Positions 59,961 through 63,837 of a stretch of DNA of 64,000 nucleotides are shown here, in pieces. The position numbers and the translations under genes were made by a program. The stretch comes from Aminivibrio pyruvatiphilus (GTDB taxonomy: Bacteria; Synergistota; Synergistia; Synergistales; Aminobacteriaceae). Numbering within the stretch: position 1 is the stretch's first letter; each line of letters starts with the position of its first letter. The notes below the pieces were generated by a model, which was not told the origin of the DNA, ran no database searches, and was given only the letters and a program-made list of their open reading frames with translations. The stretch lies in assembly GCF_004366815.1 (NCBI RefSeq), contig NZ_SORI01000007.1, positions 62,001 through 126,000 on the forward strand, given 5' to 3'.

Positions 59961-61241
59961 TTATTTCAGCAGGGCCGGCAGCCATGTGGAGACGGTCGGC
60001 ACGAAGGTGACCAGCAGCAGTATAAGCACGTTGCAGATGATAAAGGGCAGGGCATGGACGAAAATCTCCGTGATGGGCTTCTTGCAGATCTTGGTGCAGA
60101 CGTTGAGGCACATCCCTACCGGGGGCGTCACCAGGCCGATGGCCATGCCGGTTATCATGATGGCGCCGAACTGGAGGTCGTCGACGCCGAGTCCTCTCAT
60201 GACGGGGAGCAGCACCGGGCAGAGGAGCATGATGGAGGGGGCCACGTCGACGAAGAGGCCGACGACCAGGATAAGTACGTCCAGAAAGAGAAGGATCCAG
60301 AAGGGATGGACGTCGAGGCCGAGCATGAAGGCGCTCACCATGGCGGGGACCTGTTCCACGGAGAGAATCCAGACGTAAATTGTGGAGAATCCCACGACGA
60401 ACATGATGGAGCTTGAGCTGAGCACGGTTTTCTTGAGCATGCCCCCGATCTGTCCCAGGTCGAGCTCCCTGTAGACGAAAAAGCCGAGGACCAGGGCGTA
60501 GAGGACGGCAACCCCCGCCGACTCGCTGGCGGTGGCGATGCCGAGCGAGACGGACAGGACGATGATCACCGGCATGATGAGCGCCAGGACGCCGTCCTTG
60601 AAGGTGTTTTTGAAATCGGCGGCGTCGAAGGGGGTCCGGGGAGGATGGTATCCTCTCTTCCGAGAAATGACCCAGACGAGAGCCATCTGCGACAGGCCGA
60701 TGAGTATTCCCGGAACGAGCCCGGCGAGGAAGAGAGATCCCACGGAGGCCCCGGAGACCATGGCGTAGAGGAGCATGGGAATACTGGGGGGGATGATCAT
60801 GCCCATGGTGGACGAGGCGACGGTGACGCCGGCGGAGAATCCCGTATCGTACCCGGCTTTCTCCATCTCCGGAATCAGGATGGAGCCGATGGCTGAGGTA
60901 TCGGCCACGGACGAGCCGGTGATGCCGCCGAAGATCATGCTGGCGATGACGTTGACCTCTCCGAGCCCGCCGCGGATGGGGCGGACGAGATAAAGGCTGA
61001 ATTTCAGGATGCGGCGGGTGATGCCGCCGCTGTTCATCAGTTCACCCGCCAGGATGAAGAGGGGCAGGGCGATAAGGACGTAGCTGCCGGAGCCTGCCCA
61101 GACTCTCTGGGTGAAGATTCCCGCCAGGGACGGCTTGAGCAGAAGGAAATAGGCCGCAGCTGAAGCCCCAAGGGAATAGCAGATGGGAACTCCGATGACG
61201 ACGCAGACGAGCAGGGTGGATAACAGAATGAAAACGGCCAT
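59961..61241 (-). CDS. dctM: TRAP transporter large membrane subunit DctM
   Basis: 426 residues, about twelve TM helices, the transport subunit of a TRAP (tripartite ATP-independent periplasmic) importer that uses an ion gradient. Diagnostic segments: GVPICYSLGASAAAY, LPLFILAGELMNSGGITRRI, GGITGSSVADTSAIGSILIPEM, IIPPSIPMLLYAMVSG and the late GLVTPPVGMCLNVC. ATG 61241 is 13 bases after the dctQ stop. Last gene in the kduI-dctPQM set; on the basis of kduI the cargo is probably a uronate or its unsaturated derivative. Confidence 0.95.
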   Translation of the reverse strand: MAVFILLSTLLVCVVIGVPICYSLGASAAAYFLLLKPSLAGIFTQRVWAGSGSYVLIALPLFILAGELMNSGGITRRILKFSLYLVRPIRGGLGEVNVIASMIFGGITGSSVADTSAIGSILIPEMEKAGYDTGFSAGVTVASSTMGMIIPPSIPMLLYAMVSGASVGSLFLAGLVPGILIGLSQMALVWVISRKRGYHPPRTPFDAADFKNTFKDGVLALIMPVIIVLSVSLGIATASESAGVAVLYALVLGFFVYRELDLGQIGGMLKKTVLSSSSIMFVVGFSTIYVWILSVEQVPAMVSAFMLGLDVHPFWILLFLDVLILVVGLFVDVAPSIMLLCPVLLPVMRGLGVDDLQFGAIMITGMAIGLVTPPVGMCLNVCTKICKKPITEIFVHALPFIICNVLILLLVTFVPTVSTWLPALLK

Positions 61242-61254
61242 GGGGTTTCCTCCG

Positions 61255-61767
61255 CTATACCGGTTGGATTTCGTTCTCTGCCGTTCCCGTGCAGGCGGGG
61301 AGCTTCTTTCCCCTGAAGAGGGAGACGAGCCGGACGGATTCGTAAAAAGTCACGATGACGGCGTTGACGGGAAACATCACATAGAGAAATTTCACCGGAA
61401 TGCGCAATCCGGGGGTCAGTGTACCTCCGACCTTGGCAATCCAGTTGATGCCCATCCTGAGCAGAAAGACCTGGAGGAGGATGACCACCACTATCTGCAG
61501 GACCTTCACCGGACGTTCTAGGGAAGGGGGCATTTTTGAGGTGAAATAGTCGATGCGGATATGCTCGTCGCAGCGGACGCCAAGGGCGGCGCCGAAGTAG
61601 GTGGTTGCGTAGAAGAGCACCGATATGGATTCCTCGGCCCAGATGAAGGTTATTTCAAGGACGTAGCGGCTGAACACGAGGGTAATGACGGCGATGGTCA
61701 TTGCCCCTGTCAGGAGTACGCACCAGAAAGTGAGCAGCCTGTCGAATCTCTCCAGAAATTTCTCCAT
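61255..61767 (-). CDS. dctQ: TRAP transporter small membrane subunit DctQ
   Basis: 170 residues with four TM helices, the usual DctQ size. Features: RLLTFWCVLLTGAMTIAVI (TM1), the conserved FIWAEESISVLFYAT after TM2, GVRCDEHIRIDYF, and a PGLRIPVKFLYVMFPVNAV TM4. GGGGAACC-containing leader with weak ribosome site before ATG 61767. Placed between dctP and dctM, as in most TRAP operons. Confidence 0.92.
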   Translation of the reverse strand: MEKFLERFDRLLTFWCVLLTGAMTIAVITLVFSRYVLEITFIWAEESISVLFYATTYFGAALGVRCDEHIRIDYFTSKMPPSLERPVKVLQIVVVILLQVFLLRMGINWIAKVGGTLTPGLRIPVKFLYVMFPVNAVIVTFYESVRLVSLFRGKKLPACTGTAENEIQPV

Positions 61768-61835: not shown

Positions 61836-62846
61836 CTACCGGGAGGCTGCCTCCCGCATCCTGTCAAGCATTTCCTGGGTGAACATGCCCTTGGCGATGT
61901 AGTAATCGTAGACGGGCTGCACCGCCTTGACGAAGGCCGCGTGCTGCTCCTCGGTGAGGGTGGTGATTTCCATCTTGTCCTTCAGGAATTCAAAGCACTT
62001 GGCGTCATCCGTCGCGATGATCTCGTCGCTCATGAGCATCATCTCTTTGGCGGCCGCTCTGAGGATCCCCCGGTCCTTTTCGGAGAGGGCCTCGAACCAG
62101 TCCTTGTTCACGTAGAACATCTCCGCGTGGTATTGGTAGTTTACCAGCGTAAGGTACTTCTGCACTTCGTGGAATTTCATGGAGACGATGTTGGTCAGCG
62201 GGTTTTCCTGTCCGTCGGCAACGCCGGTCTTGAGGGCCATGTAGGTCTCGACGAAGGGGATGGAGACCACGTTGGCGCCGAGGGTTTCCATGGTCTTGAC
62301 GATGGTGGACATGGGCGGGGTCCGGATCTTGAGTCCCTTCATGTCCTCTGGTTTCGTGATGGGACGGACGTTGTTCGAAATGTGGCGGAAGAGTCCGGAA
62401 TCTCCCGTGGCGATAATGAGAAGTCCCGCCGGTTCGGCTGCCTTTGCGATCTCCTCGCCCAGGGGGCCACGGGTGATGTTGTGGATTCCCTTGACGTCCG
62501 TGAAGAGGAAGGGCATGGAGTAAATTTCGAGCAGAGGGGCCGCCTCTTCGAAGCCGCCGCTCCGGAAACCCTCCACGGTTCCCAGCTTGACCGCTTCCAG
62601 GGTTTCCATCTCCGTGCCGAGCTGCCCTGACGGGTACAGTTCCACCACGACCCGTCCCTCGGTCTCCTTTTCCACTTTTTCCTTGAACATGAGCAGCGAT
62701 CTGTGGCGGAATGTTTCTGCGTTCATGGAGTGCCCGATCTTCATGGTCGCCTGTGCCGCCAGGGCGCTCTCGGCGAGAACTCATCCCAGCAGGACGCAGA
62801 CTACCGCCGCTGCAGCCAGGACCATTGTTCGTGCGCTTCTCTTCAT
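61836..62846 (-). pseudogene. dctP: TRAP solute-binding receptor dctP with in-frame TGA in the signal peptide
   Basis: The reading frame from ATG 62846 (GGGAGGTG 9 bases upstream) gives an ideal signal peptide, MKRSARTMVLAAAAVVCVLLG, then TGA at codon 22 (62783-62781), then VLAESALAAQATMKIGHSMN and an uninterrupted DctP protein to 61836. Downstream parts are intact: the DctP fold (FKEKVEKETEGRVVVELYP, GLKIRTPPMSTIVKTME, GVADGQENPLTNIVSMKFHEV) and no further stops or frameshifts. Without read-through, only an internal start at 62744 (ATG, no ribosome site) is available, which would make an unexported protein. Causes could be a recent nonsense mutation, a sequencing error, or programmed read-through. 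DctQ and DctM remain intact. Confidence 0.8.
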
Positions 62847-63003
62847 CTTTCTGCACACCTCCCTGAAAAAGTGACTACGGACTGCCTAATTGCGGTGCGT
62901 ACTTCGCTGAATCTTTCGGGCAGACAACCGGCCCCGGCGGGGCCGCCTCGGCCTGTATGCCTCCGGCGAACTGCTGTTTATCACTCCTTCCGCGCCGGGC
63001 TTT
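62847..63003 (-). promoter_or_regulatory. kduI-dctP intergenic region with GC hairpin
   Basis: 157 bases between the kduI stop (63004) and the dctP start. It contains a 6-bp GC stem, GGCCCC (62930-62935) with GGGGCC (62939-62944), but no U-run, so it is a possible mRNA processing or stabilising element rather than a terminator. Confidence 0.35.
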
Positions 63004-63837
63004 TTACTTCATGACCGACATGGGTACATGGTCCATGTCGGTGAATTCCTGGTTCTCCCCCACCATGCTCCAGATGAAGCTGTAGCAGGATGTGCCTGCC
63101 GCGCTGTGGATGGACCAGCTCGGGTTGATGACGGCCTCTTCATTTCGGACGACGATATGGCGGGTTTCTTCAGGCCTGCCGAAGATGTGGAACGTCACGC
63201 CGTCCTTGGGGATGTCGAAATAGAAATAGACCTCCATCCGCCGTTCATGGGTATGGCACGGCATGGTGTTCCAGACGCTGCCGTTTTCAAGCTGGGTGAG
63301 ACCCATCATGAGCTGGCAGGTACTGCAGACCTCCGGATGGATATACTGGTTGATGGTGCGGACATTGGCTTTTTCCGGCTCGCCCATTTTGACTTTTTTC
63401 GCCTTTTCGATGTCGATATAGCAGTTGGGGTGGGATGTGTGGGCCGGGGCGCTGCTGAAGTAGAAATGGGCGTGGTCGTCGTGATTGTCGCTTTCGAAAA
63501 TGAGGTTCCTGATTCCGGCGCCGAGGTAGAGACCGTCCAGCTTCTTGAGGGGGAACCGTTCTCCGTCGGCGATGACTGTGCCCGGTGCCCCCACGTTGAT
63601 GATCCCCATCTCCCGGCGCTGCAGAAAGAACTCCGTCCCGATCTCCCTGCCGCATTCCAGCGACAGCGGGATTGTCGGGCAGGCCCCTCCGGTGATGATG
63701 CGGTCGATGTGGCTGTAGGTCATCCTGATCTCCCCGGGAACGAAAAGGCGGGTGACGAGGAAGTCATTCCGGAGCCGATCGGTATCGTAGTGCATGAAGT
63801 CGTCCGGGTTTGCTCCGTACCGGATGTCGAGTTTCAC
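63004..63837 (-). CDS. kduI: 5-dehydro-4-deoxy-D-glucuronate isomerase KduI
   Basis: Cytosolic zinc enzyme converting 5-keto-4-deoxyuronate to 2,5-diketo-3-deoxygluconate in pectin, alginate and glycosaminoglycan breakdown. 277 residues, the standard length. Zinc ligands in cupin-like order: H195 and H197 in MPCHTHERRMEVYFYF, E202, and H244 in PSWSIHSAAGTSCYSF. Other family marks are KKLDGLYLGAG and FGRPEETRHIVVRNEEAV. GTG start at 63837 with AAAGGGGGG upstream, 23 bases after the IclR stop, so it is cotranscribed with the regulator. The following enzymes (kduD, kdgK, kdgA) are not in the window. Confidence 0.96.
   Translation of the reverse strand: MKLDIRYGANPDDFMHYDTDRLRNDFLVTRLFVPGEIRMTYSHIDRIITGGACPTIPLSLECGREIGTEFFLQRREMGIINVGAPGTVIADGERFPLKKLDGLYLGAGIRNLIFESDNHDDHAHFYFSSAPAHTSHPNCYIDIEKAKKVKMGEPEKANVRTINQYIHPEVCSTCQLMMGLTQLENGSVWNTMPCHTHERRMEVYFYFDIPKDGVTFHIFGRPEETRHIVVRNEEAVINPSWSIHSAAGTSCYSFIWSMVGENQEFTDMDHVPMSVMK

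Follow-up and report, generated by a model that had tools for sequence, protein, structure and literature searches.

The window analyzed here, a stretch of 64,000 nucleotides from the genome of Aminivibrio pyruvatiphilus, contains a kduI-dctPQM operon for a TRAP transporter in which the signal peptide of the receptor, DctP, is interrupted by an in-frame TGA. We consider this stop to be probably the result of a single recent nonsense substitution, namely an ordinary loss of function affecting one of the 34 DctP receptors encoded by the genome. The relevant features are the following, all on the minus strand.

63004..63837, minus strand: kduI, 5-dehydro-4-deoxy-D-glucuronate isomerase, intact (NCBIfam PRK00924, 3.3e-122)
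62784..62846, minus strand: dctP leader before the stop, MKRSARTMVLAAAAVVCVLLG, with the basic n-region and hydrophobic h-region of a signal peptide (translation)
62781..62783, minus strand: dctP leader codon 22, an in-frame TGA with G as the next base (translation)
62745..62780, minus strand: portion of the signal peptide downstream of the TGA, VLAESALAAQAT, the c-region (ESALA-A) (translation)
61836..62744, minus strand: intact mature DctP, 302 amino acids from the internal ATG (Pfam DctP, TIGR00787, dN/dS about 0.09)
61255..61767, minus strand: dctQ, small permease, intact (Pfam DctQ, 1.2e-22)
59961..61241, minus strand: dctM, large permease, intact (Pfam DctM, 1e-108)

Translation of the minus strand from 62846 to 61836 gives MKRSARTMVLAAAAVVCVLLG-stop-VLAESALAAQATMKIGHSMNAE..., the TGA at codon 22 (62783-62781) being the sole internal stop and the next one in the frame the TAG at 61836. 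Because the signal peptide spans the TGA, with its n- and h-regions before the stop and its c-region after it, the dctP frame must formerly have been continuous; the signal-peptidase I site likely lies after ALA in VLAESALAAQAT. In profile searches the body of the protein matches Pfam DctP (PF03480) at 2.6e-80 and NCBIfam TIGR00787 above its cut-off. These data confirm the original prediction of a signal peptide starting at ATG 62846, broken at codon 22 and resuming in the same frame into an intact DctP. The frames of kduI, dctQ and dctM are open and each matches its Pfam family, so that these operon partners are indeed undamaged. This dctP thus resembles other TRAP receptors (PF03480, TIGR00787) in having a complete domain that scores above the curated cut-off and in forming an operon with dctQ and dctM, but differs from them in that its export signal is broken by the TGA. 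Upstream of ATG 62846 lies an AGGGAGG site with a calculated anti-SD pairing of -14.8 kcal/mol, the strongest of the five starts that were compared, whereas the internal ATG 62744 has a weak ribosome site (-5.2 kcal/mol). (An open reading frame in another frame, 62005-62856, was judged to be a shadow frame of G+C-rich coding DNA and not a gene).

Comparison of the window dctP with its orthologue in either of two Dethiosulfovibrio-type genomes (G047 or G055) yields pN of about 0.10, dS of about 1.2 and dN/dS of about 0.09, and no second lesion is present in the body of the gene; dctP and dctM are conserved to the same degree (82% and 81%). By these sequence measures the DctP body is under purifying selection, and the gene was functional over most of its history, the stop being either recent or tolerated.

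Orthologues of dctP are rare. None was found in the 82 other genomes of the family that were searched (83 including A. pyruvatiphilus), and elsewhere in the order the orthologue occurs only in five genomes (G047, G055, G114, G117 and G118) belonging to one genus of another family (Dethiosulfovibrio-type); contig L008 represents G117 again and was counted once. The leader is open in four of these five and is deleted in the remaining one, G114, and in none does it contain a stop. An ungapped count upstream from the MKIGH motif, which the sequences have in common, pairs the TGA with TGG (Trp) in three genomes (G047, G055 and G118) and with TTG (Leu) in G117, whereas MAFFT places a two-residue gap at this position and aligns the stop with the gap. 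The exact ancestral codon is consequently not secure, the more so since the same-genus genomes searched yielded no direct orthologue from which it could be taken; TGG to TGA would be the simplest guess for the change. What is secure is the stop-free leader of the four orthologues. The TGA interrupts a frame with homology before and after it, and sense codons take its place in these four leaders, as expected for a pseudogene. The Met encoded by ATG 62744 is conserved in the orthologues too, but it follows a full signal peptide in them, which disfavors the possibility, also raised in the original prediction, that relatives genuinely start at the internal ATG.

Of note, the dctP of G117 (L166 and L008) has an in-frame TAA at codon 192 counted from MKIGH, where the other orthologues have TAC or CAC. 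We give it little weight because the stated coverage of this low-coverage MAG is only 2.2, and it is possibly an error.

The operon itself is decaying in these relatives. In G047 and G114 dctQ lacks its 5' part, removed by a common deletion bounded by two TCCGGCAGGAG repeats (in the dctP-dctM region of L145 in the case of G047), and G114 has additionally lost most of the signal peptide of dctP through an out-of-frame deletion of 167 bases between two ACAGCT repeats (L164, 4180-5310), besides showing an altered C-terminal end of DctM. The operon is intact in G118 and in G055, which is a close sister of G047 (dS 0.13). Taken together, the comparisons indicate that the kduI-TRAP operon is patchy in distribution and has been lost repeatedly, decaying independently in relatives by deletions between short direct repeats.

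The genome of A. pyruvatiphilus is very rich in TRAP transporters, with 34 DctP and 47 DctM domains by our count. No internal stop is present in the matched domains of any of the 34 DctP or 47 DctM proteins, and the 29 other DctP paralogues whose leaders were read have no stop in either leader or domain; the TGA-bearing dctP is exceptional within its own genome. A second cluster, on contig 2 (L171, 6283-12875), has the order iclR-kduI-dctM-dctP-kduD and shares 50% identity in iclR, 54% in kduI, 39% in dctM and 33% in dctP; its kduD relative matches a Dethiosulfovibrio-type protein at 67%. This cluster may handle the same substrates and compensate for the broken operon. With regard to the wider context, the assembly is a draft of 3.35 Mb in 62 contigs, a scan for viral contigs found nothing and a search for plasmids returned only distant, short matches. 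Just beyond the window, contig 7 carries two near-alike trpB-like genes (393 and 395 amino acids; L143, 5319-8558), which lie close together and adjoin trpA.

Since the genome has selA, selB and tRNA-Sec, the TGA had to be evaluated as a possible selenocysteine codon. The dctP gene shares with bacterial selenoproteins an in-frame TGA in a genome with the required machinery, and the sequence LLG-U would look like a lipobox, but it differs from them in having neither a SECIS-like structure nor Cys in close homologues and in not being a redox site. Bacterial SECIS elements lie directly downstream of the UGA (PMC1088965), and the fold predicted downstream of this TGA is no better than those of shuffled sequences (z 0.54, -0.13 and -0.36) and does not resemble a SECIS; the Rfam search found no SECIS element either, and in close relatives the residue opposite the TGA is Trp or Leu, never Cys. 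Insertion of selenocysteine is thus extremely improbable. Genome-wide reassignment of UGA was rejected, given that RF2 (prfB) is present, no stop occurs in the remaining DctP and DctM domains and genes of this genome terminate at TGA (in a mechanical count of stop codons that includes shadow frames).

The original prediction had left undecided whether the TGA represents a recent loss, an assembly error or a site of read-through. Of these options recent loss is now favored, because the leaders of the orthologues are sense-coded, the operon is redundant in this genome and decaying in relatives, and no recoding signal accompanies the stop; the other two are rated lower. It must be considered, against our preferred reading, that a lone stop followed by a perfect body would fit a base-call error or tolerated read-through equally well. 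The idea that the TGA is a sequencing or assembly error in an intact gene agrees with the lack of other damage in dctP and with the draft state of the 62-contig genome, but the assembly is not error-rich, since no internal stop interrupts the domains matched in the remaining 33 DctP and in all 47 DctM proteins. The lesion, moreover, sits in an operon undergoing independent decay in relatives; we find an error unlikely. Low-level read-through of the UGA, for instance by tRNA-Trp, would allow a little receptor to be exported and turn the stop into a damper of expression. Purifying selection on the DctP body, the Trp that relatives have at the ungapped-equivalent position and the proposal that tolerated stops are common in bacteria (PMC7918605) are all compatible with this idea, yet the TGA is conserved in no orthologue, the structure downstream of it is nothing unusual and a recent mutation accounts for the dN/dS value as well, so that read-through seems rather improbable. 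Its stronger version, in which the UGA would be maintained as a low-level read-through stop controlling how much TRAP receptor is exported, is very improbable.

Even if tolerated, the stop in dctP would have ample precedent, because conserved genes of bacteria are reported to contain in-frame stops widely, in many cases with purifying selection still acting on the gene body (Belinky et al. 2021, PMC7918605). The present case resembles those of that study in combining a conserved gene, one in-frame stop and a low downstream dN/dS, but differs in that the study centers on stops common to at least two species, whereas the dctP TGA is known from one genome. Literature searches for stops in TRAP genes and for pseudogenes returned nothing relevant. 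The remaining alternative, that the true start of DctP is the internal ATG 62744 and the protein either uses another export route or functions in the cytoplasm, draws on the conservation of this ATG in the orthologues and on its being the likely choice of a gene caller. Against it stand the pairing energies given above, the absence of a hydrophobic stretch after ATG 62744 and the signal peptides found upstream in orthologues as well as in the paralogues that were read, and we hold such a start to be scarcely credible.

Under the preferred reading, recent nonsense mutation, the substitution would be both real and recent and termination at it efficient. Translation would begin at 62846 and stop at codon 22, leaving little or no exported receptor and at most a leaderless cytoplasmic protein made from the weakly initiated ATG 62744; the kduI-dctPQM transporter would then probably be non-functional, or nearly so. 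The earlier claim that export is lost for the entire transporter is somewhat overstated: dctQ and dctM are each preceded by a separate ribosome site, and only the receptor is directly affected. Such a loss could be tolerated in view of the patchy distribution of the operon and the presence of a second kduI/TRAP cluster in the genome.

The case matters mainly for annotation: a gene caller that starts dctP at 62744 would record a leaderless receptor as intact and mask a broken transporter, as the original prediction anticipated. It also illustrates how a TRAP/kduI operon present in few lineages has been lost repeatedly.
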